Positions 42,164 to 64,000 of a stretch of DNA of 64,000 nt are shown in pieces. Made by a program: the position numbers and the translations under genes. This stretch comes from Sordariomycetes sp. S80-01Y (taxonomy: Eukaryota; Ascomycota; Sordariomycetes). Position 1 is the stretch's first letter. The number at the start of each line of letters is the position of its first letter. The notes beneath the pieces are model-generated. The model ran no database searches, was not told the origin of the DNA, and saw only the letters and a program-made list of their open reading frames with translations. The stretch spans positions 761,872 through 825,871 of the forward strand of contig JAXQJY010000020.1 in the NCBI GenBank assembly GCA_037042185.1, in the 5' to 3' direction.

Positions 42164-44940
42164 AATAGTATATGGCAGAATGAAAATAGCAATCTCCGCC
42201 CCTTCATAGACGTCGATTTATATACGCCATGTGGCTTATGGAGGGGCTCCCTTTCATTGATACCAACAAAGCCTCTCCAGGTGAATTTATACCGAGGTTA
42301 TATTATACTGAGGTGTTAGGGTTGGGGTTTATCTATTACAAAGGTGATTAAGTCCCCATTATCGTATATGTGATTGAGTCCCACTCCTATTAAACATTAA
42401 AACCCCCCAGTCTTGACGCAGATTCTAGATATTGCGCCAGAATTCGCACTGCGTCTGCATCTATCTTATTTCGTTTAAGAACGCGCGGCTGATAGAATGG
42501 TCTATGGCTATCGCCACCTCGTCTGCACCAGGGAGAGCCTCCATGCGATCGTGAAATAGGATGGCGTTATACCTCTCGTGCAGAGCGCTATGTATCCCAA
42601 ACCCTTTATAAACTCCCATAGGACCGCGAAGCTGGTCTAAGGGGAGGTCTGCACGGACCGATTGACGAATACCGCATCGCTGAGATGTCCGAGAATCGTG
42701 CGACGATCGTCCGGTAACAGTAGAGACCCCGTTCCTGCAGGCTTACGAGGTGACGGCGGAGGTGTGATGGGAGACGATGGGTGTGACGTTCGGGCCTGGT
42801 CTAACTACAGGGTAGGTAGATCAGAGGGTCGGTTTGTTGTTCGTAGTACGTTGGGTCATAAGTGCGAGACTGGGTAGTCGTCACAGTTAAGTGCTGAAGT
42901 TATAGAACTAGAGGTAACTAAGCGTTAATAATTATATTAATAGCTAAGTTATATTTAATGAATGTAAGTGACTCGTGAGTTCTATATACTAGTTGAGTGT
43001 GTGTCAGGACCTGGGTTGTTGAAGAGAGTGAGGAGGTGTGACTAGATGGACACTCGCGGCTAGGTTGCCGCGCTGTAGCAGGATAATAGCTAGGGTGCGA
43101 CTGGTGACTGTATTAATCTCTGCAGGTTCTATGATCACTGGGCCCGTGGGCAGCCTTCTTATACAGGGCCACACGTGACTCTGCCGTGGGGTCGCAGGAG
43201 GATCGCTGCTAGGACCCTGCGAAGTTCCTGACACTTGCCTAGACCCTAGATTGGGATATGGGTGCTTCCCGGATATTCCTTGCTAGTTTTATGTACCCTA
43301 AGAAGCCAGGCATTAGACTAATTTAATCCTATACCACGATATTAATATTAAGTAGCGGTAGTTATATATATATATTATTGTAGCGCTATGCCCTTGGCGG
43401 GATAGGGACCCTAGCTATTGTATTGTGGATGCTGTGAATTGGATTAACCCCAAAGCTAATATATCGCCGTCTCGCTGCCTCTAACTAGGGCATAAAGCCG
43501 TTAGATGACTATAGTGGAAATTACCGCGAACGGTCTTTGCCTCGTCATGCTCCTAGACTTGTGTAGTTATGGGTTATTTCGCTCCGCATGGCTTATAGAG
43601 GTCTGCCAGTTTCTAGATTAGATTTTTAGTCATGAGTGGAATAGTAGTTAGTTATGGTAGATATCTATAAGGAATTTTCTCACCCCGCTTCTATATATAT
43701 AGCCCCTAAAGAGGACCCCTGCCTAGGGTAACGCGATGTAGCTACGCGGGCCGTGGAGGTCTATATCTAGTCCCCACACAGTATGCACTCCGTAAGATAA
43801 GCCTTCATAGATATCCCCGACGTGGGAGCCAAGATATCTTTATTGCCTAGACATTACTCGAAAGCTCCTTTGGCGGGATTATTACTAGCACGTCGATACG
43901 TTCTAGGATCCACTTGAGGCTGTCTGGATGTATGTCGGCGGGTCGAGATACACTATATCGTAGTTCCTATGTAGATGTATCTAACTACTGTAGATCACCG
44001 TATAGACCTGCTGCGCCGAGTTCTGGCATGTAATAGTGCCACGGATTTGCTGTTTCATGCTGATCTAGGTGGCTAGCGGCAGCCCCATGCGCGCGTCTCG
44101 ACGAGCGACATGTGCAGGAACTCTTATAGATCTCGGAGTGGATATGGAGGCATGATTCCGAGTTTGGTGTTTTTGCCGAACCGGAATAGATAACTAGCTA
44201 GACCGCGATGGAGATATTATATAGAGATGTATTGTGTTGGGGATGCGGGGCGACGGAAGTACCAATAACATTGACGTTTGATATAGAAGAGAGTAAACCA
44301 GGCTACGACCAATAACCGCTACTAGAATAGTAAGTAAAGCCATAATAGTTTGGGAGCCTGGGATACTGCCCGGCGAATAGTCAATGTGACTTTTTATGTA
44401 ACGTTTTGCCCGAAGGCGGCTGTGGTGGCAGCAACGCGTATATACAGAAAATTGGCTGATAGGAATTTTGAAAGAAAACGAAGGTTTCATTCTTGTTTAA
44501 ATATGACAGCAGACGTAGCCTTTTGTACATAAGCTTAAGCCTAACTGAGCTACCCTAGGGCTTATATTCTGGGCACCCCATGCCGAAATCCCGTCACAGT
44601 ACATATAACTATTGGCTGACCTTATGTTGTTAGCCGCCTTTAGCGAGAATACGTATATGTTCCTAACCTAGAGGATCGTCCAGCATAAGCGTTTCCCTAT
44701 CCAGCCCCGCCGTCAGCCGTCTATTCTGTGCCCACTATTAGATGTTGGCAAAGCTACAACACGTGTAATATAACTTCAGCCATAACCTTCATACTAGAAG
44801 CGGGTGACATGCGCACAAATGTCGTGGGCGTTATATCGCTGCATGTAAAGACAGTACTCTAAGTATTTAATGCCTAGTAGCCCTTCCTTTCTTCATGTCG
44901 ACTTTCCCGCGTATTCTCCCAGTGCGTACCTCACCAGCTG
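42164..44940. other. Repeat-rich, gene-free region
   Basis: 2.8 kb without a usable open frame. AT-rich words (TATATA, CTAGG, TTAATA) alternate with GC-richer remnants, the usual look of RIP-degraded transposon debris. It includes the dispersed repeat copy at 42782. An inverted TTTGTGCG motif is at 44812-44819. Confidence 0.55.
42782..43005 (+). repeat. Dispersed LTR-like repeat, least mutated copy
   Basis: Begins TGTGACGTTCGGGCCTGG and aligns for about 215 bp with the copy at 62476. Almost all differences are C-to-T or G-to-A in the 62476 copy (for example CTACAGGG to CTATAGGG, TACGTTGGG to TATATTAGG). A TG start and short length fit a solo LTR or the end of a transposon. No internal coding region or target-site duplication was identified. 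Confidence 0.7.
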
Positions 44941-45350
44941 CCCATCCTCGAGCCGGGTTGAACGCGGTTTGCTGAGGTCAATGTAGTAGCAGCCCATCCA
45001 GATGTTGCACTTCGGCGGCTCCTAAGCCATACGCAGTCGAACCAGGAGGGTACATCTCGGATTCTTGGGCTCAACCGCAACAAGGGCGAGGTCATCGAGC
45101 TGCGTCTCCGCACTGACGCATACGACGGCTACCGTGACTACAAGACAATCGGCAAGACCCTCTGCCACGAGCTCACGCACAACGTGCACAGCGACCACTG
45201 CCGCAAGTTCTGGGATCTCTGCCGCCAGATCGAGCGCGACGTCGATCGGGCAGACTGGAAGCCAGGCAGCCACACCATCGGCGAGACCTCGGCCTACCAC
45301 AATCCGATCACGACGAGAAGGTTCGGCGGCTCAAGATTAGCCATAAAACT
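44941..45350 (+). pseudogene. Fragment of a WLM-domain metalloprotease gene
   Basis: In the frame of position 45001, about 115 codons read as the WLM (Wss1-like) domain: AEVNVVAAHPDVALRR, then LGLNRNKGEVIELRLRTDAY, then the zinc motif HELTH (45166-45180) followed by NVHSDHCRKFWDLCRQIE and a late YHNP. In functional relatives HExxH plus a downstream His bind zinc, and the enzymes cleave protein-DNA crosslinks or ubiquitin/SUMO conjugates. Here a stop at 44959-44961 cuts the N-terminus, no start is present and the frame runs out at 45430 in unrelated sequence. The complement carries an open frame that is only its shadow. It is a truncated relic, better preserved than its surroundings. Confidence 0.75.
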
Positions 45351-45696
45351 GACCACGTTGGTATTGGTGGACGTTTGCTCTGGCGGTATTCAACACACAG
45401 CTAGGAGCAAATATGGATGTTGCCCCTTTTAGAGACAAATTCAAGATAGGCCCCACCCGGCCCACCGATAGATCCAAGACGACGCTAATCTCCGCATCCC
45501 GTCTTACCGAAGATCCAAACAAATTGCTGAATCGTGCACAAATGCCTCCCCTAGATTTATGGGTTCGATGATACGGAAGCGGCACGGGTTTAGGATCACA
45601 TCGATTCATGCTTCTTCGGCGAGCGAGCCAGCCTCGGCAACAGAGGGCATACAGTCAGAGATTGAAAAACTGCCACATTGACGAAGGAAGAGGCAC

Positions 45697-45757
45697 TTGT
45701 GCGGAGTTTAGCGTTGTCTTGGATCTATCGGTGGATCCGTGAGAGGCATTTGTGCGG
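45697..45757 (+). promoter_or_regulatory. Two copies of the island motif before the DUF4396 gene
   Basis: TTGTGCGG at 45697-45704 and TTTGTGCGG at 45749-45757 lie 299 and 247 bp before the DUF4396 start. The same 8-9 bp word recurs at the other copper genes, so this is a candidate binding site for the copper-fist regulator. Binding is inferred, not shown. Confidence 0.5.
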
Positions 45758-45995
45758 GGTGCCGATCACTCACATAGTGTGGCACGTTTCGTGGAGGCAC
45801 AACCCGCGCAGAGAGGGGCAGAGTGGACGGCGCATCCGCCGTGTTGATCAGGTGTTCCACCGTCCCGATTCAGCTCTTGCCGAATGGATCCGGATTTTGT
45901 CCAACAAAAGAGCGTTTGAGGTCGAACCATCTGAGCGGTTTTCACCTACGTTCCTCCTCTCTACCTAGGGTTACTCTCATTCGACCAGTTTCGTG

Positions 45996-46685
45996 ATGAT
46001 GGTAGTGTCTCGGCTTGGCCACCTTCACGCAAGGCTGGCAACTCGAGTGCTTCAGCCCGTAAGCGCTTCCGTGGGCGTTTTCGGGATTGGCCACGGCCGT
46101 CAGCAATTCAGGGCAAGGTCATGCAAAAGCAACCAGCAAGAGCGACTGCTATCGCTAACATCGCCCGGATTCTGGGGCGCGACGCAAACGTGGAAGCGGG
46201 CAGGTGTGAACACATCCCGATGTCTCGTCGGGTGTACACTGGGCGACTTCTCCGCCATGTGGTATCTTCAGGTGTTTCACCCAGAAATTGGCATGGATAG
46301 CATTATGGCCATCTCAAGTTCGTGTCCTCCTCTCCTCACTCACACGGAATCAGGCAATGCGTTTCTTGTGCAGCGCACTGATCTGCTTCTAGTGACCAGC
46401 GGCCTCACGACGTCCCTATTACTGGAGACCGTCCTTTTGAAGTTCGGCCGCGACCGCCTGCCCTGGGTGGCGGCTGCGCGGACCGCGGCCGGCATGAGCA
46501 TGATTTCCATGATCACCATGGAGCTCGCCGAGAATGCTGTCGACTTCCACCTGACAGGCGGTGTGGTGCAACTGGAATCCCCTGTGTTCTGGATCGCCGC
46601 TGTGGTCTCCATGGCGGCGGGCTTCCTGGCCCCACTGCCGTACAACTACCTTCGGCTGCGCAAGTATGGCCGGTCTTGTCATTGA
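45996..46685 (+). CDS. DUF4396 membrane protein
   Basis: Two exons, 45996-46317 and 46393-46685, giving 204 residues. The first 50-60 residues are rich in Arg, Ser and hydrophobics with few acids, which could be an organelle-targeting leader. The rest matches the DUF4396 pattern: WKRAGVNTSRCLVGCTLGDF, then SGLTTSLLLETVLL, ARTAAGMSMISMITMELAEN and SMAAGFLAPLPYNYLRLRKYG. About four membrane helices are evident. The family is best known from bacteria, where its role is unknown. The 75-bp intron contains no stop and keeps frame, so an unspliced form with 25 extra residues is possible; homology favours removal. Its position beside a copper ATPase and under the shared motif suggests a metal-related job, which is inference. 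Confidence 0.8.
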   Translation: MMVVSRLGHLHARLATRVLQPVSASVGVFGIGHGRQQFRARSCKSNQQERLLSLTSPGFWGATQTWKRAGVNTSRCLVGCTLGDFSAMWYLQVFHPEIGMDSIMAISSSCPPLLTHTESGNAFLVQRTDLLLVTSGLTTSLLLETVLLKFGRDRLPWVAAARTAAGMSMISMITMELAENAVDFHLTGGVVQLESPVFWIAAVVSMAAGFLAPLPYNYLRLRKYGRSCH

Positions 46686-47411
46686 ACACAGAGGAAGGGA
46701 GAGCAGAATTTTTCGAGGCGTATTCGGGGCGTGATCTCGTTGGCTTTGTCGGCCGTCTCAGTTGTCACAGTGATTGTTCGATATATCTTACACAAATTGA
46801 ATTTTCAAAAGTGGGTTCCGAAATTGTGACCCGACTACTTGACGTAAGTGTTGACCCATTGGGAGCCACATTAAAGGGCGAAAAATGACCGGTAGACGAC
46901 GAGGCGAGGCGAGACGAGAGCTAAACTAAACAAAGATCGAGCGAGACGGACAGGTAAGGAAAGAACGCTTGTGCCCGGCCATGTGTGACGTTCGGGACTG
47001 GCCTAGCTACAGGGTAACCACATCAAAAGTGGTTTATATTAAAGTTCACCAGCGGGTCAGTAATCGAGCGGTTATTCGGGTCACAGTCGAATGCAGTAGA
47101 GTGATTTATACGTTAACATCATATTAATAGCTAGGGAGCTAAGTAGTAACTGAGTATGGTGAAGCTGGGCTCCCTATATACTACCTCTAGCCGCGTATGG
47201 TCGCCAGGCGACCAGGTGCCATCAGGAAGGAAGGCAGTCGCCTAACATTCGCACATGAGGTTTATGCGACCGACGGTTGATTGGATGAATAAAATTGGGG
47301 TGCCAGTAGGTCACGTGCCATGCGCATGACGACTCATTCCGACCGCATGTTGGGTCGTAACAACATGATCATCGACCAACACATTCTTGATACGGCCTGC
47401 CCTGTATGCCC
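46686..47411. other. Intergenic region with a dispersed repeat
   Basis: The 3' ends of the DUF4396 and copper-ATPase genes converge here. The region is mostly the repeat copy at 46983-47200. A 70-codon frame at 46676-46888 is probably chance. Confidence 0.5.
46983..47200 (+). repeat. Diverged copy of the dispersed LTR-like repeat
   Basis: Begins TGTGACGTTCGGGACTGG and keeps CTACAGGGTA, GGGTCA.TAA and CATATTAATAGCTAG landmarks in the same order as the 42782 copy, ending near CTATATACTA. Divergence here includes transversions, so it is an older or different subfamily member rather than only RIP-mutated. It lies inside the copper island. Confidence 0.6.
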
Positions 47412-50400
47412 CTACTTTTCGAGCGCAGCCTCAGGCTTGCTGTACCGATAGCCCAGCACCGGCAACCGCGTCTTCAGGAGAAGACTGCTGGTGATGACGC
47501 TGATGCTGCTCAGGGCCATGGCCAGAGCAGCCCAGACGGGGTCTAACCTGGTGTGGGCGCCATTCGCCTTGATCGGATAAAGCACACCGGCCGCCACGGG
47601 CAGGGCGATCAGGTTGTAGACCGAGGCCCAGATGAAGTTGAACTTGACACGCCTGAACACTACGCGACTGAGGCTGGCCAGGGTGAGCAAGGTGTATAAG
47701 TTGGAGTTGACTAGCACGAACTCGGCCGCGGAAATCGCCACATCCGATCCAGATCCGATCGCGACACCGACATCGGCAACAGCGAGGGCCGGCGAGTCGT
47801 TCACTCCATCGCCCACCATGGCCACCGTCGGCCTGCGATACACCGGCTTCCTAAGGCCAATGAAGCCCCGGTCAACTTTGATCTGACTCTTTTGGAGGTA
47901 CTGAATTTTCTCGGCCTTCTGCTCAGGCAGCACACCCGCAATGATGTTTTCGGGTGGGATGCCGACTATGGCGCCGACGGCATTGGCCGTCTTGGGGTTG
48001 TCCCCGGATAACATCCAGACCCCGATGCCTTGCTTGCGCAAGGCCTTGAGGACTGGGGCTGCCTCGGGTCGCAGAGCGTCGGAAACAGCGAAGATTGCGA
48101 GGGGTGACCATGCCGACGGGCCCCCCGGTTCGATGAGACGCCCGGCCGCAAGAACAACCGACTTGGCCTGGTCTTTCCAAGTGTCCAGCTCGTTCAGAAC
48201 GGTTCTATCAAAGACGGCTTGATAGTCCGCCATGAGGGCTTCGTTTCCCATGATCACCTCCATGGGCCTGGGAGATGACACGGGTGAAAAGGAGCCCTGG
48301 ATGCCCTTGCCTGGGACTTCCTTGACTTGCTGGGGCTTCAGAGGCTCCACGCCGCGCGACACAAAGAACGAGACAATGGCTTTGGCAATAGGGTGACTGC
48401 TGTTCCCCTCCAGCTCGTTCAGGCAGCTCGACACGACCTGCTCGGACCAGGTTGCGTCGTTGGCAGGCGTTAGGAATCGGTGGTCGGTTAGCTTGGGCTC
48501 TCCGCCCTCGGTCAAGGTGCCTGTCTTGTCGAACACCACGATGTCGAGCTTGCTAGCCTCCTGGAAGGCCTCGCCGCCACCCTTGGCGAGGATGCCGTGC
48601 TTGGCGGCCAGCCCCCCCCCGACAAAGAGGGCAGTAGGCGCGGCCAGGCCTATGCCACAAGGGCATGCGATGACAAACACGGCGATGGCAAACTGGAGAG
48701 ACCAGAAAGGCCAGCCGCCGATAGCGGTGTCCCGATAGCTCGGAGGCAGGCGGCCCGATTCGCCCAGACAGAGCCATGTCACCCAGGTCACTATGGCGAC
48801 AAGAGTTACAAAGGGCACGAAGTAACCCGTGATTGTGTCGGCGACGCGCTCAATCGGGGCCCGACGCGACTGGCCCTCGCGGACAACCTTGATGATCTGG
48901 TCCAGGAGCGAGCCGCCGGCGGCGCCCGTGATACGTATTGCGATGGGGCCCCCTTTGTTGATGGTACCTGAGTAAACGGCATCACCGAGCTTCTTCTGTA
49001 TCGGTCTTGACTCGCCCGTGAGGCTCGACTCGATAAACTCGGCTTCGCCGTCGACGAGAATGCCGTCCCAGGGCGGCGAGCCACCTTGCACGACCCTAAC
49101 AATGTCGCCCACGTCGAGCATGTCGATCGGCACGTTCTGGGACTTCATCGTCTCTTCATTGGGATCCTTCATGAGTAGTATGGCCTCCTTGGGCCGAAGG
49201 CTACCTAGCTTACTTACGGCGTCGCCAGTTTTCGCCTTACTGTACGCCTCTATCAAGCGGCCAATGAGCAAGAACAACGTCAGGAACACCACGGCATCGA
49301 GGTGCGTCTTGGTCTTCTGCATGTGATGACCGTCATCAGGAAGCGTCGTCGCAATGATAATCTCCACGATGGAGCCAAAGTAGGCAATCGTGGTGGCGAA
49401 GCTGATGAGCATGTCCATGCTGCCGAACCGGTAGAAGCGACGCAGGATGGGCGTTCGGCTGCCAGGCCTCCACAAGTTGTATAGCTCTTTGATCGTGCGC
49501 CGGTGGAAGACGTCCGTGGCGAAGAAGTAGACCGGCGTGGTGATGGCCAGATTGGCCCACTCTGCCCGGGAAACACCCTTCAGGGTCGACATGAGGTATC
49601 GCTGGCCTGGGTCTTCCGACGAGACGAGGTTCATGTAGATAACCCCGATGATGAGGGCGGGGATGGCGGCCACTAGCGACAAGATGACCCGGTAGAAGGT
49701 GCGTAGCATCGTTCGCCTGACCAGCTGCCTCGACCGCTCCTCCACCGTCGGTGGGTGATAGATGGTCACGGTGAAGGCTGGATCGGCCGCTGAGAGGGCC
49801 GACAAAATGTGTCTCACAGTTAGGCTCGGGGCCTGCGGTGTATACGAGAACGTTGCGTACGGCTTATCCAACGTCGGGGGCTTATCCATGACGACGGCAT
49901 CGCCGAAGGTCGCCACGGCCTCGATGGCTTTGCGGGGGCAGTGTTGGCAGTACATGCCGGCGACGTGGACTGTCAGGTTCCTGCGACTATCCCTGCCGCG
50001 TCCATCGGCCACGTCGACAAGGTCGTTCAGAGAGGCGGTATAGCCTACATCCTGGATCGTCGCGATGATCTCGCGCAGGTTACCCTTGTCCTCGAATACC
50101 ACCGTGGCGCTGGTGGTGATGAGATTGACGTCGACGGACTTCATCCAGGGAAGCCTCTCCAGCGCCTTGGTGATCGTCCCGACGCAGGAGCTACACGTCA
50201 TGCCTCCCACCGACAACGACGCTTGCCACGTCTCCGAAGGCGCACCAGCGCCAGCGACTTCAGTCAGCTCATCTAGGGTCGCTTCGTATCCGACCGAGGC
50301 GATAACCCTCGCAAGCTCGTTTGCATTTTCCTCGCCATAGAACCTGACGGTCGCTGTATGGGTCAGAAGGCCGACGCTGGCCAAACTGATCCACTGTTTC

Positions 50401-51011
50401 GCTTCGAGCGCCTCAGTTATCTTGCTGACGCAGGAGCTGCAGCTCATGCCACTAATCTCTAACACTGCCTGGTACGCTTGCGGCGGCTCTGACGGCCCGA
50501 CGACGACCAATGATCCCGCCTTGTCAGCTGGGAATGCCGTATCGACTGTGTCTTTCTCGCTACCATCGGCAGGGACAAGCTCGCCTGACCTCGGTTCATG
50601 GCAACGTCTGCAGTTCTTTGCGTGTTCCAGCCTCCTTGTTTCTTTGTCGGGGCCTTCACTACCTTGGCTCCACACCTTTGTCAGATTGTGGAGCCACGGG
50701 ACGGGAAAGTCATCATCGGATGGGCCGGCGGCCTCGATCGCCTCTTGCAGCTTGGGACTGGGAATGACGCTGTCCACCTCGTAACCCGAGCTGACCAGCG
50801 CTCTCGCCGCTATGCGCGGGTCGAATTCCGGGCTATGCTCGACGGTGACAGTGTGGTTGACAATTGTCGTCGTGACGGATGAGGGGGGCGGGTCGAGATG
50901 GAGGAGCAGGTTGTCGATGAACTCGGTGCAAGTGGCACAGTGAATGTTTGGCACGAGGAATGTGGTCGACAACCCCGTTACGGGAGATGTCGTGCGCTTG
51001 TCTGGAGGCAT
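47412..51011 (-). CDS. Copper-exporting P1B-type ATPase (CrpA/PCA1-like)
   Basis: Single exon, 1199 residues. The start at 51011 is the first ATG; upstream codons are open but begin at GTG. The long N-terminus has four HMA-like modules with metal-binding pairs HCATC (Cys25/28), GMSCSSC (191/194), GMTCSSC (273/276) and GMYCQHC (355/358), plus CRRC at 134-137. The core has TGES (665-668), the transmembrane CPC copper site (783-785), DKTGT with phosphorylated Asp828, SSHP, and GDGVNDSPA. CPC plus multiple HMAs indicates Cu(I) transport, probably export at the plasma membrane, using ATP. The size and layout match the fungal copper-resistance ATPases rather than the Golgi CCC2 type. It shares a motif-rich 864-bp promoter region with the ATX1-like chaperone gene. 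Confidence 0.94.
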   Translation of the reverse strand: MPPDKRTTSPVTGLSTTFLVPNIHCATCTEFIDNLLLHLDPPPSSVTTTIVNHTVTVEHSPEFDPRIAARALVSSGYEVDSVIPSPKLQEAIEAAGPSDDDFPVPWLHNLTKVWSQGSEGPDKETRRLEHAKNCRRCHEPRSGELVPADGSEKDTVDTAFPADKAGSLVVVGPSEPPQAYQAVLEISGMSCSSCVSKITEALEAKQWISLASVGLLTHTATVRFYGEENANELARVIASVGYEATLDELTEVAGAGAPSETWQASLSVGGMTCSSCVGTITKALERLPWMKSVDVNLITTSATVVFEDKGNLREIIATIQDVGYTASLNDLVDVADGRGRDSRRNLTVHVAGMYCQHCPRKAIEAVATFGDAVVMDKPPTLDKPYATFSYTPQAPSLTVRHILSALSAADPAFTVTIYHPPTVEERSRQLVRRTMLRTFYRVILSLVAAIPALIIGVIYMNLVSSEDPGQRYLMSTLKGVSRAEWANLAITTPVYFFATDVFHRRTIKELYNLWRPGSRTPILRRFYRFGSMDMLISFATTIAYFGSIVEIIIATTLPDDGHHMQKTKTHLDAVVFLTLFLLIGRLIEAYSKAKTGDAVSKLGSLRPKEAILLMKDPNEETMKSQNVPIDMLDVGDIVRVVQGGSPPWDGILVDGEAEFIESSLTGESRPIQKKLGDAVYSGTINKGGPIAIRITGAAGGSLLDQIIKVVREGQSRRAPIERVADTITGYFVPFVTLVAIVTWVTWLCLGESGRLPPSYRDTAIGGWPFWSLQFAIAVFVIACPCGIGLAAPTALFVGGGLAAKHGILAKGGGEAFQEASKLDIVVFDKTGTLTEGGEPKLTDHRFLTPANDATWSEQVVSSCLNELEGNSSHPIAKAIVSFFVSRGVEPLKPQQVKEVPGKGIQGSFSPVSSPRPMEVIMGNEALMADYQAVFDRTVLNELDTWKDQAKSVVLAAGRLIEPGGPSAWSPLAIFAVSDALRPEAAPVLKALRKQGIGVWMLSGDNPKTANAVGAIVGIPPENIIAGVLPEQKAEKIQYLQKSQIKVDRGFIGLRKPVYRRPTVAMVGDGVNDSPALAVADVGVAIGSGSDVAISAAEFVLVNSNLYTLLTLASLSRVVFRRVKFNFIWASVYNLIALPVAAGVLYPIKANGAHTRLDPVWAALAMALSSISVITSSLLLKTRLPVLGYRYSKPEAALEK

Positions 51012-51875
51012 CTCGACAGCCGCACAAGTGACAAGCTGGTGAAGGAGCTGAACGGTGCTTTGTGTGGATGGGGAACTTTGAACCTCTACCCTCACCCAAC
51101 CGACACGGCGATGGGCCTCTTTTGAACCAGCTTGGAACCGGGACTGCCTAGAAAAAAGTCTCGGTAATCTAGTCCAGTAGCTCCTTCGAGAAGACTCCAG
51201 AGTCCTTAGCTGCTAACTTGAGACCAAAGGGATGACGTCTGACGGTTCGCCTTGCCGGAACCGCCTTGGGAAAATGGGCTGACCCCGTACGGATGCAGGC
51301 ACTGTGGTGGAGATATTGGCGTTGAGCAAATTGTGCGACGACTTATACCCGGGGAAATGGGAACATCGGCTTCTTGAAGTAGGTCCTGCGCGGGTTGTGC
51401 GGCGACAAACGTCTGGGGAAGTGGAGCTATGTGTATGTCGTATGGGGTTGCCACGCCCACAAGATGCCCGACCTACGCCCGTTTTGCGTGATTTGTGCGT
51501 TGACTCAGCCTAGCTAACAGAATGGGTCTCTGCGCGGTTTGTGCGGTACGTTGAATATTTGTCACCCTGATAACGACCCTCAGACACCTCCAGAATAGCC
51601 CTGTCCCTCCCTTTTTGAGACTTTTGTGCGAAACCTCTCTTCGGCCAGCCGAGGAGTAATCCGAATCACCTCTCGGCTGTGGGATTGTCGAGAAATTTCT
51701 ACGTCTATGGCTCAGGGACTTCGGCTATGCCTTAAAAAGGGGCGGTGTTGGTTGCCGTCCCTCCCTCTGCTCAGTGTCAACCAACACCGAAGCCAACGCC
51801 GTACTTACCAAGTGCCCTCCTTTCTACCCTCCTTCAGATTATTCCAACGCCGTCGTTCACCGCTTGAGCGCCGCG
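51012..51875. promoter_or_regulatory. Divergent copper-gene promoter with five TTGTGCG cores
   Basis: Between the ATPase and chaperone start codons the word recurs, always in the same orientation: TTGTGCGAC (51331-51339), TTGTGCGGC (51395-51403), TTTGTGCGT (51492-51500), TTTGTGCGG (51538-51546) and TTTTGTGCG (51622-51630). Chance predicts far less than one 8-mer copy in 864 bp. It is not the classical Ace1/Cuf1 core (GCTG) nor exactly the Mac1 site (TTTGCTCA), although the TTTG start is reminiscent. The nearby copper-fist protein is the natural candidate ligand. Confidence 0.65.
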
Positions 51876-52153
51876 ATGATGCGCACTTTTCAGTTCGAAG
51901 TCCAGATGGCTTGCGAGAGTGAGTGCGAGGCAGACGCGACTTGTTGCGTACATAGGCTTTTGATTGACCGGATATAGGCTGTGCGTCGGCCGTCAAGAAA
52001 GCACTTGTCCCTATGAACGGTCTTCAATCCGTTGAAACGTCCGTCGAAGAGCAGATTGTGACGGTGATTGCCGCCGAGGAAATCACAATGGAGGAGGTGG
52101 GGAACAAGATCAAGTCGTTGGGCAAGGTCGTGAAGGACAGCTGGATTTTATGA
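51876..52153 (+). CDS. ATX1-type cytosolic copper chaperone
   Basis: Two exons, 51876-51918 and 51978-52153, giving 72 residues; too small and too split to stand out as an open frame. The 59-bp intron (GTGAGT..TATAG) interrupts the metal loop, and splicing yields MACESC with Cys13 and Cys16, the MxCxxC copper site. The rest has the ferredoxin-like beta-alpha-beta-beta-alpha-beta layout: FQFEVQ, SAVKKAL, SVETSVEEQIVTVIA, EVGNKIKSLGKVV. ATX1 proteins hand Cu(I) to the HMA domains of copper ATPases. Here the gene is divergent from just such an ATPase and shares its promoter region. Two ATGs (51876, 51879) are possible starts. The island copy may be specialised for the export pump. Confidence 0.88.
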
Positions 52154-53741
52154 GTGGACGCCTGTTCTGGGTGCTGGATGTTAACCCCCATGGCCGCACG
52201 ATTGGGCGCCGTATTGTTCTGAGCTCGTGTCGGACTAGTTCAATATTGCGTCCTCGTCCAATCGAACAGAAAGCTATTATCTCACCACTCGCAAGCCGAG
52301 CGCCCTGCGATGTGTCAACAACCACGATGCCATAGTTTGCCCCAATCATGGTGGCGGCTGGTGGAAGACCGAAGCCTCCACGGTGCGACTAAGACGGAGG
52401 AGGATCGACCCATGTTTCAATGGCGGTGGAGCTCTTTCTTGAGCTCTCCTTCAAGAAACCTCTCAAAGTTGTGGCCGCCGTACGATGCTTGTAGTCGTTG
52501 TGCTATAGTTGTGGATTTGAAGCCCTCATGTGACTCACTTAAGAGAAGGACTTCCGACATTTGTCAGGGTAACAGCATCGAAACCAAGACTTGTATGACC
52601 ACAGAGTACCTCCTAAGTCAGCCAGACAGTAGCATCTCACTAACTATTAACATTACATCTGCAATAAACACCCCACCAAACTCAAGCGTACCTCTAACTT
52701 AAGAGAAACTAGATGGGCATATATATCTAATAAACAACAGTCCACACAGTCGTATGGCCCACCACTAATCCTATGATCCCTAAGGTCAAGCTTTATACCA
52801 GCATCGCTGTTCAGTGGCATTCCCTCCAAGTTCTCAAAATCAGTCGATAGCAGCGTCGCTTTGCCCCCCAGCGTCCTGACAACGCCTTCAGGATTTCTTT
52901 TGTAGAATGTACAGCTCTGTTTCGAGAGCTATTGGATTTGAGCGAAGAGGTCCAAGTCATATACAGCAATTCAGTCTGCCGCTCTTCTCCAGTAAACACT
53001 ATTTTTTTTCAATGATTTCGTCATCGTAATCATCACCACCATTGTCATTGTCGCAATCATAATCATCGGAGTCAACGTCGCTGACATCCTGTCCCAATCA
53101 TCGTCTTCCACATGAACTGTTGTGCTCAGTGTCCATCCCCAACTCCCAATTCTCCTTCTGAAATAATCACTCCATCCATCTTGACAAGAGCTCAGACATA
53201 AAACAGCTAGAGAGACTATGGTAGAGGTTACCGACTGGAGCAGAAGGAGACGCAGTCCTTGCAAAGGGCAGCGTGATATCTGAAAGCAAGGAGCGGAGAC
53301 ACTTATTAATATTCGTACGCTGCATAGCTGCCGATAGGGCAGCTGGGACTCCTGTTGCATTGTCCTAGGAATGTCCTCGTCCTAGGAAGTTAGGAAGAGT
53401 GGCTAAACAGAAAAGGACCTCTGGATGCTTGCGAAGGTGTGGTATCTGGCTCGGTAGCTATGGCGTTGGAATAGTAATGTAGCATTCGTAGAGCTCAATG
53501 CGCATGAATGTTATGTGTGCCACTTGAAGGTTTGCATACGAGAGCACAGTCAGAAAATATAGTCCAAACACATACATAGATTATCCACACATCCCCAAGG
53601 ACACTTGCTGAAAGTCCAATAATAGACATAAAACCTTTTCCATTTCCAACCCGTTCAATACGATTGAGTAGAGATCCTCTGTCCTGCAATACTGTCTGCT
53701 TGTGCATTATGAAAGCATTGTGAAAGCCCATACGCATTGAC
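52154..53741. other. Intergenic region with a simple repeat
   Basis: 1.6 kb with no supported gene. 53011-53075 is an imperfect ATC/CATTGTC microsatellite; read on the minus strand it gives an Asp-rich phrase but without a start or upstream exon. A 129-codon minus frame (52971-53360) across it looks like chance. Confidence 0.45.
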
Positions 53742-55728
53742 TTACTTCACCGCGTACCTGCTTCGAGCTCGTAGTCTCGCGCCGTAGAAGTACAACGGAA
53801 AGATACCCCCAATACATGCAACGGTACACCCCGCCAGAATGCTGATACCGGGGCCTATACCAAGGTTTTGGTAAAGTGGGTAGGCGAAAAGCACAGCTCC
53901 TGCGGCGAGGGAGGAGCGGGCCGCATCATTACCCGCGAAGAGTGAAGCGGCGTACTGTGGGTAGGTAAAGGACAGGTACATGAACAAGCATTGCATCATC
54001 ATGAACATTCCGATGTTATAAATCGCAATCCCTATCACCGAAACTATCCAGTGAACAGATGTTCGCGAGGTCCAGCCTAATATTTGAACTGTCAGTTGAC
54101 TTTTTGATGCGTAGGCAGGCGGAACGACCCACCTGTCCAACCAGGCCACAACGGGGAAGCACTTACCGATAATGAAAAGCCCCACTGGTGGTACAAAACA
54201 CGCGTAAAGCCCCGGGATAAGACAATTTTCTGGAGCACCTAGCCCTCGCGCCCTGATTGCCGGCTGCCATACGGCCCAGATGTAGAGACAGTAGATGACC
54301 AGCGAGATAAGGACCCCTATCAAGACGGATAAGAAAACCAGACCGATTTCTCCGGGAGTGAAACCGTAGAAAACAGGATAGACGAGTGGCAACGCTTCGA
54401 AGAAAGAATAATAGGTGCCGTAGACCAGGCTGGTGTACACAGCCGTGTAAGTAATCGCAGGGTCGAGTATCATGATCTGCACTGGCCTCAGGAGTGATTC
54501 GACAAGACTTTGATGCAAGGTCATCTTCGATTGCTTGATTTCCCCCTGCGACTGGAGTCGTTGGTTACCCGTTAGGCGACGTAGACGAGAGGCACGGCGC
54601 AGAAGTATTGCGTCCGATAATGTCTCTGGCAGTAGGAAGAAGAAGGCGACCCAGACAGGACCACTCGCCCAGAGCATTTCCCACAGAGACCATCTCCAAC
54701 TATGATTTGGTAAGCCGAATTGACGATCAACAGACACACCTGAAGCATTCTTACCCCATCACAGGTACGCTAAACCCGGAAAGTAGAGGCCCAAGTGCGG
54801 GGCCTGCTACAGCGCAGACAGACCATAACGCAATCGCATAGGGCAGATTGATTGGAGAGAACTAGTGCAATAATCAGTTCTGCCCTCTCTGTAAATTTTA
54901 CATGCAACTTACAATGTCGCTCATAGAGGCAGCTCCGGTGGCGAGACAAGGTGAACCGAAAAAACCTTGCAAAAATCGTAGAGTGATCAGTCCCCCAAAG
55001 TTATTGACCATTGCAGTGGGAACAGATAAGATAACAAAGAGACCAAGAGTCACAATGTACGGCGGATTTCTGCCCACTGCCGGGATTTCACTAAGCGGTG
55101 AAAACAGGAGCGGACCAAGGCCATCTAGTCAAGAGCGCTCGAATCAGTAAAGTGTGGGCAAAAGCGAGAGTGGTTCTACTCACAAGCTAGGACATATAGA
55201 GCAAGCCCAAGAGATGCCGCCGTGTAGGAAACATCGAAAGTTGCCTTGACCCCCCTGATCCAAAGTTAGCGACGAGCGGGACTCATCTATGAAGTCTGAC
55301 TCACTCTATGCTTGAGACATAGATGGAAGATCCGCCATACACCACGAATGTGTACAGACTGCAGAAAATTTTAACTCTGTGCAGATAGGTCTGCGGGATT
55401 GGACGACTCACTTTATTAACGACGCAACGCATAGCTTCTTAGGTAGAGACCAGTTTTGCGGGTTCTCTGCATCGTTCTCGTCATACCAGTCCACCAAACT
55501 CTCGATCTGTGGGCTTGGAGATGCTTCCGAGTCGTTGATATCCGTCCTTGAAGAAGCCTCGAGACTGCTCAGTTGCGCATTTTCGCGGCCGAGTGAAGGC
55601 TCAGAGGGGTTCAGGTGCTGCACAGGCCATTGCCAGCTCGGTTTCTCCTCTGGATACAGGAGGACCCTCCTGCCAGACGCGAAACGGATCAGCTGGCCAG
55701 CTGTCGAGTCGCGGATAATGTCAAGCAT
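53742..55728 (-). CDS. MFS transporter of the DHA1 (drug:H+ antiporter-1) family
   Basis: Seven exons on the minus strand: 55412-55728, 55305-55358, 55184-55254, 54913-55124, 54755-54861, 54167-54699, 53742-54076, giving 542 residues. The introns are 50-90 bp, all GT..AG and frame-preserving. A cytoplasmic N-terminus of about 105 residues contains DENDAENPQNWS, the WxxxxPxNPxNWS-like entry phrase of fungal DHA1 proteins. LRFLQGFFGSPCLATGAA is the motif-C-like helix, and a central charged loop precedes the second half. Twelve helices are expected. The family exports drugs, polyamines and metabolites from the cell. It sits inside the copper island, but the nearest motif upstream of its start (56403) is 675 bp away, so membership in the regulon is uncertain. 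Confidence 0.88.
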
Positions 55729-57121
55729 TGTCGTTTCTTAGCGGTAGGCAAACACTTGATCGATAAAATGTTCAACGGCACCAGTCGTGGAACTTCGCAA
55801 GAGAGCAGTAGCTGCTAAGGCCATATATATAGGCATGTGCGGTCAGCGACTGACTGCTGTATCACTTTTGCAGAGAAGATTCCCTTATAATCTCGCCAAT
55901 TCCACCATGGTGTCTAGCCGGAGATGGCAAGACACTAACCTCATGGTCCTAGGTTTGACGGCCGGGATGATTGAGATTGGTGAGTCGAGATCCACTTTGG
56001 CAATTCTAAAAGCAGAAACCTTGACACGCATAACGCACGCAGAAGTCTAGAACATCTAAGATTTCCCCAGGGGTCTGCCGCGTCTTCAAGTGGTTAGGCC
56101 GAGAGACGATTCAATATGTACCCAGATGCAGAGGCTACGAACCGAACTCAAGCTTGCCCGGACTTAAGCATCATACTTTCCTGATACATTCAAAATGTGG
56201 AGCATATCACATCACGAGTTCGCCAGAGGCTGTGTTCCTTTAATTCTCAGATACTTCTATTCCGCTTCCTGATTTGAAATGCAAATATGTCTCAGTTGTA
56301 GTGGTATGTCTTCCAAAAGTGCAAGCAGAGATTAGTCTATTCTACTCGCAGCCTATGCAACTTTATTACGTTAAAAGATATCTACCGGATTCGGTTGAGT
56401 AGTTTGTGCGTTCTTGGGCGAGGACCGAGGCATTCCCATTTCGTAAAACTTGGCACATTTCCGTGAAAGCGATTTTTGCGGAAAGATGGCTCCTCGCAGT
56501 GTCACACAACTGGGCCTAGAGCCCTGCAACAGATTCTAACGCTTGCCCTTGGTGAATTGCGCCGAGCGTCGATCTCCTGAGCCTTATCATTTTTTCACGT
56601 CCGTATGCGATGTAGGCTGCTCCACACAATTGACGGTACGCACCATACCATTATGTTAACACTCTCAAGGGGGGAAGCGTAAGATGAATGAAATATGAAG
56701 AAGAGCTCTAAAGAGACCGAGACTTTTTACAGGAGCCTACTGAGTCCATAAGGAGCTCGACCGCCCCATGCTTACCCTGGTACAGAGACCACGACTCCAA
56801 CCAAGACTTAACCTGGGTAAAGAATCCACATATCCGCCTCTAAGAAGCTCCACTAGATAGCTGATTTCTCTAAAATGTGGAGTATATCATAAATTCTCCA
56901 CTTCTCACCAGGAACGCACAAATACCTCACATGCAGTAGTGGTGTGGCAAAAGTTGGAGTCAAACGTCGGCTGACTTTAGACCCTATGCCATGTGAAAAG
57001 GTAACGCCAGGGAGTATGCAGAGCTCGATTGGGGGGTTTTGGGGTTCTTTGTCGCGAGAAGGGTAAGACAATTACCCGTTTTTGTGTCACAAATGGACTG
57101 CTGATTGCTACTTTTGTTATA
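55729..57121. other. Intergenic region with two island motifs
   Basis: 1.4 kb without a supported gene. TTTGTGCGT occurs at 56403-56411 (+) and, inverted, at 56914-56922. I looked for a short cysteine-rich metallothionein frame between and beside them and saw none. Confidence 0.45.
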
Positions 57122-57741
57122 TTAAAGGACCATGGTATATAAGGCCGTTTCCGGGAACACAATTCTTTCTGAAGACCATCTATCCTTACGTTCGTTTATT
57201 GGATAACAGCGAATGGAGTCTTCTTTCTGTCCTAGTTCGGGGCCGGAGCCAGGTGAACGGGATAAATCCTGGCTCTCACCCGTCATTCCTGCCTTGATCT
57301 CTACCTCTTCCTGCTGGTTGCCGGTAAATTGGCTTCTTCCTAGCATGCCGAGCAGTGTACTGAATATTTTAGTGTAGGCTCTCTTCGATTTAGCTGCCTT
57401 CTCAATTGCTGCGATATCAGCGACCCACTCATTGAGCTCAGTCTCCGAGATCCTTACACTTCTGATCGTCGGCTTTGATCTTGCTCGGGGAAACGTGGAT
57501 CGGCGATCTTTGACACGGGTTGTTTGATCTTTGGTCATCCTAATGTTTGCACGATTCTTACGAGCACGGAAGGAGCCTGGTGTGTCTTGTCACTGATACT
57601 CGATACTTGGGAGTCATTTTGTTCGTGTAAATAAGGTCTCTTCCTGGATTCATGAGTGATCAGCTCACAGAGGGAGATGCGAAATCTCAAACCGTCAAAT
57701 TCCGGCAAGAGGTCGCGCTCCATTGTCAGAAAATCAGCCAT
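57122..57741 (-). CDS. Possible small hypothetical protein, two exons
   Basis: A tentative model on the minus strand. Exon 1 starts at ATG 57739-57741 and reads MADFLTMERDLLPEFDGLRF. A 71-bp intron (GTATCA..CCAAAG) would join it to a frame ending at 57122 that contains RISETELNEWVADIAAIEK. Each half has protein-like composition and a helical, charged character, but I recognise no domain and the splice borders are not the strongest possible. About 180 residues if correct. It lies between the DHA1 gene and the copper-fist gene, divergent from the latter. Confidence 0.3.
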
Positions 57742-58270
57742 ACTCCTACAATGGCGATCGACAGACTTTATAGCTAAGATGAAGGATTATTTTAGTTATA
57801 TCAATGGAGAGCTCGTACCTCAAACCCCTCAGAGGAAGTCTATTGTCCTACACTGCCTTTGACGCCTCCTGGTCTTGCCTGGTAAGGGCGACTATGCTTA
57901 CCGTGATGAAAGAGCAGGGGCTTGGGGCGAAGGGAGGGCAGCCAGCTCACAAATGACATGATTATTTTCATGGCGTAATTCTAAAAGAGGGCCCGATCGA
58001 GAAACATGAAACAGCCTCGCTGGACACTTTCTTGAAAAGCAATTCAGGACTCAACCATTCAGAGCACGCTTAAGATGTTGTACTTACGTATTGCTCATCG
58101 AGCCCGTGGAGACGTTACATAGGCCGAACCGGAATAATCGATGGGCCGATATCCGTGACCTGTGGAGCACCTCAGGCAATGACGTGTTCAACGTAGTCTC
58201 GGGGGAGCATAAAAACAATCAGCTGTGAACCCTTTGTCCTAGACAAAGGACTTCGCACCCCATCAAAAAA
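57742..58270. promoter_or_regulatory. Upstream region of the copper-fist gene
   Basis: 529 bp between the tentative hypothetical gene and the copper-fist start. No TTTGTGCG copy was found here, so the regulator does not obviously control itself through that word. No TATA box recognised. Confidence 0.35.
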
Positions 58271-59150
58271 ATGTTAATCGACGGAATCAGGTTTGCCTGC
58301 AATACTTGCATTCGAGGTCACCGCGCTGCGCAGTGCCAGCATAACGGTAAGTGTCACTTGGGGAGAGCTCGTACACTCACCTTGGCTGATATCCGAATAT
58401 AGACCGTCCACTCCATCATGTTCGTGGCAAAGGACGTCCAGTTTCACAATGTGGTCACTGCCGTTCGTTGCGCCAGACTCAATCTGTCCATACCATGTGC
58501 AAGTGTGCCCTCCTCTCACGAACCTCCAGCGATAAGCAAGTTCGCGCAGGTAAGCTTCTACGGCTGATCATTCGGAAGCTATAACTAACCGCTATTATCT
58601 CACCGTAGCACGATGCCTCTGTATTCACGGCGAGGTCTGTAATTGCGCTTCCAACCAGCCGAACAAGGAGCCTGGCGTGGTTTCGAAAGCCGTGCAGCAG
58701 AGCAGCAACCCATCTACCATCTCCTCCCAAGTCCAGTTAGCCGCGGACCAGAGCAGCCTCTACTCATTTCAGCCAGGCGGCTTGAATTCGAGTCAAGCTC
58801 CCGAATCTGGCGTAACGAACTACGTCCTCTTTTCACAGCAGTTCAATGAACCCACTGACTGGCATCTGAATGATGTCATCGGTAGCTTCCCCCCTTTAGT
58901 CGTCCCCCCTTTAGTCGGCAACTACACGACGGCCACCGCAAGTTTTGAAAACGGCGACTCGGTGTTCGAAGGAAATACGTTTCCGGTATTGGATGAAACA
59001 ATGTTTAGTTTTGAGGACTGGACGTTCGACTATTCGCAGCCTGTAATCGACTCCTCGATAACGGACAACGCGGAATTAGTCAGTTTCGAAGTGCAGTCGG
59101 GGATCGATGATAGCTACGAGGATGTTAGCATAACTTATGGACCAGTCTAG
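58271..59150 (+). CDS. Copper-fist transcription factor (Ace1/Cuf1/Mac1 family)
   Basis: Three exons, 58271-58346, 58403-58549 and 58609-59150, giving 254 residues; splitting hides the DNA-binding domain from simple frame reading. Residues 1-60 are a copper fist. MLIDGIRFACNTCIRGHR with Cys10, Cys13, Cys22 and His24 forms the zinc module. R33-GKGRP-38 carries the minor-groove KGRP element. QCGHC (42-45) and CKC (58-60) begin the copper-binding cysteines, completed by CLCIHGEVCNC (77-87). Such factors bind several Cu(I) through CxC cysteines and then activate or repress copper genes. The C-terminal two thirds are Ser/Gln-rich and then acidic, as in an activation domain. It lacks a second Cys-rich repeat, so it looks more like a copper-excess sensor than a deficiency sensor; that is inference. 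Confidence 0.9.
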
Positions 59151-60094
59151 CAGTGCAAGAAGGACCTTTTCCTTGCATTTGATTTTAACACCGCCCACTC
59201 CACCCTCAGGGGTTTTTTCAAGATATACCCTGCGTACGTCCGCGACTTATCTTAAGTGCAACCTTCATCGACATTCCAATCTGAATCCCAATTGTAAAGG
59301 CAGTTTTCTAAAGCCATGTACGAAAGTATGCAGCGTAGAGGGGTGTGCGAAGATTTGTGTCTCGCAGACAATTGATGCGGTTCACCATTCAGCTCGAGCT
59401 ACTACTTTGAGGAGTATAGATCCTAAGAAAGTTAGTGCTCAGAGATAGAATTAGGAGATAGCCCCACTCAAGATGAGATGTTTGTGCGGCATTGCGTGGT
59501 TTATGCTGAGAATAGATGAGAGGTTTGTGCGTCGCTGATGAAATTATTTGCTGATTAATTAGGTTTGCCGATCAGTACAGTAGAAGTGGGCGACTGGACG
59601 ACAACCTGTCTAGTACATCGGGGCACCAGACCAGCCAAGACTGAACGCTTAACGTCCAAGCAGCCCTCAGCGTCGCCAGGGTTAACAGATTAAAAGCTTC
59701 CGATTTGCCAAGAATCTCACATAATCGGGCAGCGAGCGGTCATTTTGCGCGCGCGAGCTTCTCACCTGTCGCATTTATCGGATTTAACCCCCACCGTCGT
59801 ATGCCACCCCAGCAGCACATTATTTAGCCCCCGATCCCCTACTTTGCATATCTTTTCTCTTACTCAGAGAGCCTAGCCTACCTACCATTTTCCACTTATG
59901 ATTAATACTTGCAATACTGTTGGGTGTCTATCTTAACACAACTTCATCTATCCGGATACTTCGTCGGCTGGTTTCCGCATCCTCACCACCCCACTGCTGC
60001 CTGTCACCACTTACACCAATCACAACGGTCACTATCAACTCACAACAAACCGCCGACCATCTACCACGCCGGCCAGCTTGACAGCCGGGATTTC
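59151..60094. other. Intergenic region between two transcription-factor genes
   Basis: A 103-codon frame at 59137-59448 has an ATG and a few cysteines but overlaps the copper-fist 3' end and resembles no metallothionein. The CT- and CA-rich 200 bp before 60095 are probably the leader of the Zn2Cys6 gene. Confidence 0.4.
59481..59532 (+). promoter_or_regulatory. Two copies of the island motif before the Zn2Cys6 gene
   Basis: TTTGTGCGG at 59481-59489 and TTTGTGCGT at 59524-59532, spaced 43 bp apart. They lie 614 and 571 bp before the Zn2Cys6 start and about 330 bp after the copper-fist stop. Confidence 0.5.
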
Positions 60095-61327
60095 ATGATG
60101 GGGTTTTCATCACCGTCAGAAGACCAGAAGCCGGTCACTATTTCGAAGAAAAGCCCAACATCCAACACTAAGTCCGTCAAGCCGCAACATCGTGCACCAA
60201 AGCGTGCTGGATCTGCTGCCTCAGTGCACCACTATGACAACCTCACTCATGGATTAGGTATGGACAGAAGGCTCAAGCGTGTTTGGAAAGCTTGTGAGAG
60301 ATGTCGCACGAAGAAGACCAAGGTACGTTTGGTGCATCTTGCAGATAGCGACGCGTCGATTGGCTAACAGTTAGTCAGTGTGATGGGGAGTTCCCCTGCA
60401 AGAGGTGTAAGGACGACGGACTTGTATGTACTGCTGGCGTGCGGAAGAAGATCGGGTTCAAGCAACTGCCGAGGGGGTATGCCCAATTCCACGGTTGTCA
60501 TCGAGATCATTCCACTCACATTCGTTAGATACGCTGAAGTTCTTGAGAACACGCAAATCGCCCTCATCGCTACCGTCCACAAGCTCTACAACATGGTCCG
60601 CAGCGGCGAGCAATGGCATCTAGGCGAGTCTGAGCTTAACGATCGAGGTCTCCCGGTTATCCACAACATCGCATCGAAACTCGGCGCGATTCGTCCCAAC
60701 AGCGACATCAATCTTCCCGTTCACTTGGTCTTCCCCGAGGACGAGGCTGGCATGGCCGAGCTAGCTCGACAACTTGAGGAGCAGCTCCCACACCAAGAAA
60801 CAATCCCGATGTCCTTGTCGCACAGGGGCGGCGGTTCCACAGCATTGTCGACGAACTCTCCTGAACTGGATCATTCGGATGATGGCGGGCTTGACAAGAA
60901 CTACAGGAGGCTAGCGTTTGGAGAGGGCAATCTAGCGACAGGAATGTCATCACTAGCAAGCCTGACACATAGTCTCGGCTTCGAGAACACCCCGTCTTCT
61001 GACTTCGAGGTCAGCAGCTTCAACCTCTTCTCGAATGAAGCACCGCCCGGTACTTTCACCCCGCCGATGTGGCGGGAAATGATGCCGCGACAATCCACAG
61101 AACTCCCGACTCTGACGCCGCAACAAACAGCTCGGATGCAACAAGTGCAACGGCAACGAGAACAGATGATGCAACAAAACATCGCGTTAGGGAGCAGTCA
61201 GATCATGGGTTATAACATGGGTGGCATGAAGCTCCAAGGGCTGTCGCATCCTAACTCCGATCCGATGATCTCAATGGGTGATCCTATGGTCTATCACAGC
61301 TTCGACGATAACGACCAGAGACCCTAG
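60095..61327 (+). CDS. Zn2Cys6 (Gal4-type) transcription factor
   Basis: Three exons, 60095-60322, 60379-60476 and 60529-61327, giving 374 residues. The first intron cuts the zinc cluster; splicing joins ACERCRTKKTK to CDGEFPCKRC and gives the full C-x2-C-x6-C-x5-C-x2-C-x6-C pattern (Cys67, 70, 77, 83, 86, 93). No fungal_trans middle domain is evident. After the cluster come a helical segment (YAEVLENTQIALIATVHKLY), a middle part and a Gln/Met-rich tail (QQTARMQQVQRQREQMMQQN) that could activate transcription. Two adjacent ATGs exist; the first is used. It is the last gene before the subtelomeric repeats. Target genes are unknown; copper involvement is suggested only by position and two upstream motifs. 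Confidence 0.88.
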
Positions 61328-61640: not shown

Positions 61641-62475
61641 TTCAATCGGAGCAAGCTATAGTAGAGCCCATAGAAAATCTCCCGCTAAATGAGAATATGC
61701 TAGTAAAGATAGGCATAGGGCCCATTAATAAAGGCCCATTAAATAAGATTAATTATAATTAGTCTAGCTATAGGGTATTATTAGGGAATAAATTTAGAAT
61801 AGAGATTAATAATAAGGGTCTATAAAATAAAGTATATAAGATTATTAGCTAGAGGAAGAAGTATATATAATTAAAGGAGTAAGGGTTTAGGGATAGGGAT
61901 AATATAAATCTATAAGGAGGGCTAGGTAAATTAGGATAAAGTATTATAGTTAGTAAAGGTAATTATAGAGCTATTTATTTATATATAAGTATTCCTATTT
62001 CCTATTTATTAAGAATATAGGTTTATATATATAATAGGAGAAGTAACGATAGGTTTATATCGATACTATTAAAGAATTAGGTTAGATAAATAAAAGAGAA
62101 TTATTAAAGCTATCTAGTAGATTATTAATTTTATCTAGATATAAGAAGAATTAAAAGATTTCTAATACCCGCCGCTAGATAGTAAGCTAATATAGTATAT
62201 CTAGCCGCTAATAAAAGACGGTATATAATATAATAAATATAGCTATATTATGTGAACCTAACCGCGAGGCCGGTGATATTTTGGGCCATAATACCAGCTA
62301 GGCTTAACCCCTGTCCCCTGCCAAAGGGTTCGCGCATAGACGCGATAGGGGTAATATAATACTACCTCTAAAATACCAGTTTATAAGCTAGCTAATTAGA
62401 GGAGATAAGGCGCCTAGGTTAGGAAATAAAGACCGAAGAATTCCTAAAGATAAAGGAAAAAGGAGAGGGGAAGAG

Positions 62476-62700
62476 TGTGACGTTCGGGCCTGGTCTAACT
62501 ATAGGGTAGATAGATCAGAGGGTTGGTTTATTATTCGTAGTATATTAGGTTATAAGTATGAGACTAGGTAATCGTTATAGTTAAGTGCTAAAGTTATAGA
62601 ACTAGAGATAACTAAGTATTAATAATTATATTAATAGCTAAGTTATATCTAATAAATATAAGTAACTTATAAGTTCTATATATTAGTTAAGTATACTAGG
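62476..62700 (+). repeat. RIP-mutated copy of the dispersed LTR-like repeat
   Basis: Begins TGTGACGTTCGGGCCTGG, identical to the 42782 copy for the first 18 bp, then differs mainly by C-to-T and G-to-A. This is the clearest pairwise RIP evidence in the window. Confidence 0.75.
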
Positions 62701-63923: not shown

Positions 63924-64000
63924 TTAGGGTTAGGGTTAGGGTTAGGGTTAGGGTTAGGGTTAGGGTTAGGGTTAGGGTTAGGGTTAGGGTTAGGGTTAGG
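63924..64000 (+). repeat. Telomere, (TTAGGG)n
   Basis: Twelve full TTAGGG units and a partial one run without error to the last base. The G-rich strand points outward, so this is the right end of the chromosome. Confidence 0.98.

Follow-up and report, generated by a model that had tools for sequence, protein, structure and literature searches.

Sordariomycetes sp. S80-01Y has a 30.87-Mb genome in 16 contigs, and the stretch analysed here, a 64-kb window at positions 761,872 to 825,871 of contig JAXQJY010000020.1, forms the right end of one of them (C3; 825,871 bases) and terminates in telomeric repeats. Close to these repeats, between positions 45996 and 61327 of the window, we find six genes in the order DUF4396 membrane protein (plus strand), CrpA-type copper ATPase (minus), ATX1-like copper chaperone (plus), MFS transporter (minus), copper-fist regulator (plus) and Zn2Cys6 transcription factor (plus). 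The first five had been named in an earlier note on this DNA, and all five were borne out in the sequence by motifs, Pfam matches and gene models; their placement within 14 kb of the telomere has to be corrected, as they lie ~5 to 18 kb from the repeats. Splice signals in the gene models were judged by eye, and the evidence on the fungal side comes from one genome.

A second set of copper genes

The ATPase gene of this island is an intact frame with the CPC, DKTGT, TGES and GDGVND motifs, matches PF00403, PF00122 and PF00702, and scores 464.5 bits against TIGR01511 (cut-off 397). Both CxxC and GMxCxxC occur in its N-terminal metal-binding domains; of the four HMA domains ascribed to it earlier, three stretches are scored by Pfam and the fourth is a GMYCQHC motif without a score. 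By its sequence the protein fits the CrpA/CRP1-type class, and it is predicted to export copper and confer copper tolerance. The chaperone consists of a single HMA domain (PF00403, E=2.2e-11) with its MxCxxC motif present as MACESC. The copper-fist protein carries the zinc module and KGRP, in keeping with the (R/K)GRP signature, and matches the AMT1 chain 1co4_A (E=1.5e-12). It has eight more cysteines beyond residue 40, arranged in CxxC/CxC pairs and putatively copper-binding; a passage of PMC6514546 gives eight cysteines forming a polycopper cluster as a feature of AceA/Ace1/AMT1 proteins.

Homologues of four of these genes lie elsewhere in the genome. A core CrpA-like ATPase is found on contig C16 at 1.52 Mb (the island ATPase is 49% identical to it over 949 positions), a core AceA-like copper-fist gene on the same contig at 1.91 Mb (45% identical), the main ATX1 gene on C11 at 1.25 Mb (34% identical, with its intron at a different place) and a DUF4396 paralogue on C13 at 0.31 Mb (59% identical, with an identical intron position). 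Copper-fist matches number three genome-wide, namely the island protein, the AceA-like protein and a Mac1-like protein on C16 at 1.41 Mb, with types assigned from sequence; local alignment of the island protein gives 45% identity over 88 positions (score 230) with the AceA-like protein and 45% over 55 positions (score 100) with the Mac1-like one, whose sequence was used without its start. A further ATPase was read as CCC2-like (C14) and another gene as CCS1-like (C6). The four main copies each have their own locus, the two on C16 being ~0.38 Mb apart, which makes the island a second set: it gathers diverged second copies of copper genes whose main copies are scattered. The separate loci of the main copies also agree, for the present genome, with the earlier statement that pump, chaperone and sensor are normally unlinked.

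Table 1 Genes, elements and flanking features of the island, in window coordinates
Feature	Position	Strand	Remarks
WLM-domain metalloprotease gene fragment	44962..45432	+	PF08325 E=1.1e-28; left edge of span
Two variant elements (AGAGGCACTTGTGCG, AGAGGCATTTGTGCG)	45689..45756	+	240-293 bp upstream of DUF4396 start
DUF4396 membrane protein	45996..46685	+	intron 46318-46392; PF14342 E=2.1e-44
CrpA-type P1B ATPase, predicted copper-exporting	47412..51011	-	open frame, Pfam, TIGR01511
Five elements (51323, 51387, 51485, 51531, 51616)	51323..51630	+	divergent ATPase/chaperone promoter
ATX1-like copper chaperone	51876..52153	+	intron 51919-51977; MACESC motif
MFS transporter	53742..55728	-	several exons, one matching PF07690; copper role putative
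Exact element	56396..56410	+	668 bp upstream of MFS start
Exact element	56915..56929	-	between MFS and copper-fist genes
AceA/AMT1-type copper-fist regulator	58271..59150	+	introns 58347-58402, 58495-58553; PF00649 E=6.2e-19
Two exact elements (59474, 59517)	59474..59531	+	564-607 bp upstream of Zn2Cys6 start, 3' of copper-fist
Zn2Cys6 transcription factor	60095..61327	+	introns 60323-60378, 60422-60473
TTAGGG telomeric repeats	63920-64000	none	terminus of contig C3

The shared 15-bp element

The intergenic regions of the island share a rare 15-bp element, TGMG-N3-TTTGTGCG. In a k-mer count comparing six mostly intergenic stretches of the cluster (6.4 kb) with the left 44 kb of the window, TTTGTGCG or shorter words within it headed the 6-, 7- and 8-mer rankings, and the top-ranked 8-mer, CGCACAAA, occurred nine times in the six stretches and not once in the left 44 kb. 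Across the genome the 670 copies of TTTGTGCG are not above the reversed control (702); in the island nine were observed, compared with 0.32-0.36 expected at the genome rate. Dinucleotide-matched random island sequence yielded a mean of 0.6 and a maximum of 5 copies of this word in 500 runs, and in 60 runs of dinucleotide-matched random sequence no 8-mer at all came up more than 7 times.

Aligning the island sites by eye revealed the second half-site, with the starts of TGMG and TGCG 11 bp apart; GMG stands at this offset in 11 of the 14 island TTGTGCG sites, and the flanks of the sites, by eye, are dissimilar to one another. The exact element TGMGN3TTTGTGCG has 13 sites in the 30.9-Mb genome, obtained by going through all 50 matches to TGMGN4TTGTGCG: seven in the island, where ~0.003 would be expected at the rate of the rest of the genome, two in the promoter of the core CrpA-like ATPase gene and four elsewhere. 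Since the second half-site was derived from the island sites only, the core-promoter copies provide an independent, out-of-sample check, and both match it, with a chance probability of ~6e-5 at equal base use. Their upstream distances from the presumed start ATG (C16:1523964) are 303 and 819 bp, or ~30 and 546 bp should the alternative in-frame ATG at C16:1523691 be used. Besides the island, the core CrpA-like locus is the only one in the genome with more than one exact site; the remaining four are single, on C10, C11, C12 and C15, with at least two inside open frames by eye, and their number is close to the chance expectation (670/128, or 5).

Within the divergent ATPase/chaperone promoter, the elements at 51485, 51531 and 51616 are exact and the other two are not. 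No element occurs from 56930 to the start of the copper-fist gene, the 1.3 kb directly upstream of it, a layout that fits Aspergillus nidulans, in which crpA is strongly copper-induced and aceA is not (according to a passage of PMC7705104). Given that the control regions share a rare element that also stands before the main copper pump, the genes are probably induced jointly when copper is in excess, and the element most likely serves the core exporter as well.

AceA-type copper-fist proteins activate CrpA in Aspergillus and Fusarium (passages of PMC5447758, PMC6514546 and PMC7333239), and the TGTGC core of the element is common to TGTGCTCA, the motif of the A. fumigatus copper-fist protein MacA (passage of PMC6514546); we infer from this a link between the element and copper-fist proteins. 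Co-regulation could instead run through another regulator, for example a factor of the general stress response or the Zn2Cys6 protein encoded in the island, as the two exact elements upstream of the Zn2Cys6 gene and the several sites that run on as TGCGG, containing a CGG triplet, might suggest. We consider this unlikely, because the only other multi-site locus is that of the core CrpA-like ATPase, a type controlled by AceA elsewhere (passages of PMC5447758 and PMC7333239), and because the TGTGC core recurs in the MacA motif. A passage of PMC5447758 (2017) names the AceA element as awaiting characterisation, and one of PMC7333239 (2020) indicates a single ACE core of the yeast type in the promoter of FgCrpA.

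Other motifs were tried. The copper-fist motif TTTGCTC has five sites in the window, and those at 45374, 45405 and 51324 belong to the island; TGTGCTCA has two, one in the island. Such numbers are too small for a verdict. The ACE core of the yeast type, HTHNNGCTGD, was dropped for want of enrichment (of 65 window sites, the left 44 kb holds 51 and the island 13, with five in the six stretches); two of its sites fall within the 1 kb preceding the ATG of the core CrpA-like gene. TTGTGCG pairs at short spacing (gap 5-35) were likewise rejected, with nine genome-wide, none in the island and 11 in the reversed control; one of them, at C5:941 kb, adjoins genes whose sequences were taken to encode a P450 and an epoxide hydrolase. 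Wider pairs (gap 35-65) number 12 genome-wide, four of them in the island, with eight in the control, and no copper gene was recognised near the pair at C5:270 kb (46-bp spacing).

DUF4396 and the proposed copper regulon

DUF4396 is a little-studied family, and a passage of one paper naming it locates it on the edge of a metal-resistance cluster in a bacterium. The island protein scores 151.8 bits against PF14342 (gathering score 27). We surveyed the best 80 of 561 confirmed bacterial DUF4396 loci, which are actinobacterial, and found a P1B ATPase at most 6 kb from DUF4396 in eight of these 80, against an expectation of ~0.7. The background behind this last figure is rough (27 matches in 35.2 Mb, scaled to 0.93 Mb of loci) and was built on five genomes that had been chosen for carrying a P1B ATPase near DUF4396. 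Homologues of CopA, CopZ and CsoR together stand beside DUF4396 in six of the best 80 loci. Four of the eight ATPase-linked loci belong to Curtobacterium, so that fewer lineages than loci are represented; in the Curtobacterium loci L058 (2355-6441), L065, L101 and L112, genes for CsoR/RicR-like, CopZ, CopA and DUF4396 proteins lie together. This grouping with CsoR, CopZ and CopA homologues supports a copper role for DUF4396. An alignment of two fungal and 37 bacterial DUF4396 sequences shows a conserved C-x3-C pair and a conserved S-x3-M-E-x3-N motif, and the structure model of a bacterial member has four helices.

Taken together, we read the island as, probably, an accessory copper-detoxification cluster that is co-regulated through a copper-fist response element and in which pump, chaperone and DUF4396 protein have the roles proposed here. 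Excess Cu(I) would load an AceA/AMT1-type copper-fist protein, either the island's own, the core AceA-like one on C16, or both, and the loaded protein would bind the TGMG-N3-TTTGTGCG elements. Binding would switch on the DUF4396 gene and the divergent ATPase/chaperone pair, with the MFS and Zn2Cys6 genes as further possible targets. The chaperone would then pass Cu(I) to the ATPase for export, and the DUF4396 protein, with its predicted four helices, conserved Cys pair and Met-Glu-Asn motif, is proposed to bind Cu(I) in the membrane as a partner of the pump. The earlier suggestion that pump, chaperone and sensor form a copper-handling module is supported, and the shared element adds evidence for it.

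A number of observations pull the other way. The k-mer count came after the motif had already caught the eye, and the second half-site was defined post hoc. In its relaxed form, TGMGN4TTGTGCG, nine of the 50 matches are in the island and 41 outside, which does not greatly exceed the 27 in the reversed control. No copper gene was recognised by eye in the 3.5 kb around each of the four other exact sites, and the genome-wide motif list has no exact element at the core ATX1, CCC2-like, AceA-like or DUF4396 loci, which means that the regulon would be narrow. Within the island, the sites in the DUF4396 promoter are variants (AGAG), and the elements near the MFS gene are at least 668 bp away from it. 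On the bacterial side, 72 of the best 80 DUF4396 loci are without such an ATPase (19 of the 80 loci being shorter than 12.3 kb), and comparison of the bacterial model with known folds gave no close or convincing relative.

A bolder version, which we put forward tentatively and would not expect to hold in full, is that the island forms a self-contained copper regulon, equipped with a sensor, chaperone, P1B pump and DUF4396 of its own, and that this eukaryotic arrangement resembles bacterial cop operons through convergence, with DUF4396 a membrane Cu(I) partner of P1B ATPases in both kingdoms and TGMGN3TTTGTGCG the response element of AceA-type copper-fist proteins in this fungal lineage. The bacterial csoR/copZ-copA loci with DUF4396, in Curtobacterium and others, group regulator, chaperone, pump and DUF4396 as the island does; the fungal genes, however, have introns and separate promoters, and their regulator is an unrelated copper-fist protein, so that the likeness is one of design and not of membership. 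The AceA-CrpA axis of Aspergillus and Fusarium likewise pairs an AceA-type copper-fist protein with a CrpA-type ATPase, and its main copies are present in this genome too, whereas the island links a diverged second set to a chaperone and a DUF4396 protein near a telomere, with a shared 15-bp element. AceA of A. fumigatus is reportedly the subject of a 2018 paper by Cai et al. In A. flavus, crpA and crpB are two redundant, AceA-activated copper ATPases, resembling the pair of core and island pumps; the relevant passage of PMC6514546 does not describe linkage to a chaperone, sensor or DUF4396 gene.

In a partial literature search (titles and abstract starts), we found no report of a fungal cluster in which a DUF4396 gene accompanies those for a copper-fist protein, a copper ATPase and a chaperone, and none that describes TTTGTGCG as an element of copper control. 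The kinds of gene are known; the novelty, as far as this search shows, lies in how they are grouped, in the element and in the link to DUF4396. The element is a sharply defined candidate, open to experiment, for the DNA site of AceA-type copper sensors in a filamentous fungus, DUF4396 becomes tied to copper genes in a fungus as well as in bacteria, and the gathering of apparently co-regulated copper genes near a telomere bears on how fungi gain copper tolerance.

Surroundings and origin of the island

The transporter gene had been called a DHA1 exporter. Its MFS assignment comes from a single exon, which matches PF07690 with E=3.6e-7 and 29.9 bits, below the cut-off of 33.4, and the long last exon gave no MFS match in the Pfam profile search. 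DNA similar to the Zn2Cys6 gene is found on C10.

At the left edge, positions 45021-45323 of the WLM fragment are 94% identical in DNA to C13:317199-317502. The segment C13:311064-317502 holds counterparts of both the WLM fragment and the DUF4396 gene, ~6 kb apart and in the same order and strand as in the island, which lends some support to the earlier idea that the island is expandable by duplication. The DUF4396 counterpart is 68% identical in DNA; set against the 94% of the WLM fragment, this implies either that the two did not arrive in one recent joint copying event or that they evolved at very unequal rates. Copies of a dispersed repeat surround the island (42771-42998, 46983-47037 and 62465-62692 in the window); the genome contains at least 45 matches to this family, and by our own count 21 are less than 20 kb from a contig end. 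Both the paired counterparts on C13 and the repeats would suit a chance pile-up of ageing subtelomeric duplicates without joint function, an explanation to which we give very little credence in view of the intact frame and motifs of the ATPase and the seven exact elements where ~0.003 are expected.

The earlier note had also likened the island to movable Starship cargo. Grouped metal-handling genes are indeed carried by Hephaestus-type metal-resistance Starships, and metal resistance is documented as Starship cargo (passage of PMC11623301); horizontal acquisition or mobility would further suit the subtelomeric location and the divergence of the island copies from the main ones (ATPase 49%, copper-fist 45% and chaperone 34% identity). 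Unlike in those elements, no captain lies near the island. A whole-genome, exon-by-exon search for DUF3435 returned two matches, above the Pfam cut-off but partial, and none in the 64-kb window, as had been stated before; the captain that was to be sought to the left has as its nearest candidate a partial match ~426 kb away. For lack of a nearby captain, a Starship origin is not supported. As the DUF4396 intron position is common to the C13 paralogue and the flanking repeats are copies of a dispersed family, we regard acquired or mobile copper cargo in general as quite improbable, and prefer to see the island as an accessory cluster of diverged copper genes.

The nearest DUF3435 match itself (C3:381499-381750) covers about one-fifth of the profile in a 150-aa open frame and could be what is left of a Starship captain. 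A 34-bp tandem repeat of ~8 copies occupies 62709-62975 of the window, on the telomere side of the cluster. Farther left, positions 24385-26124 encode an acyltransferase of the PF02458 / trichothecene 3-O-acetyltransferase-like family.

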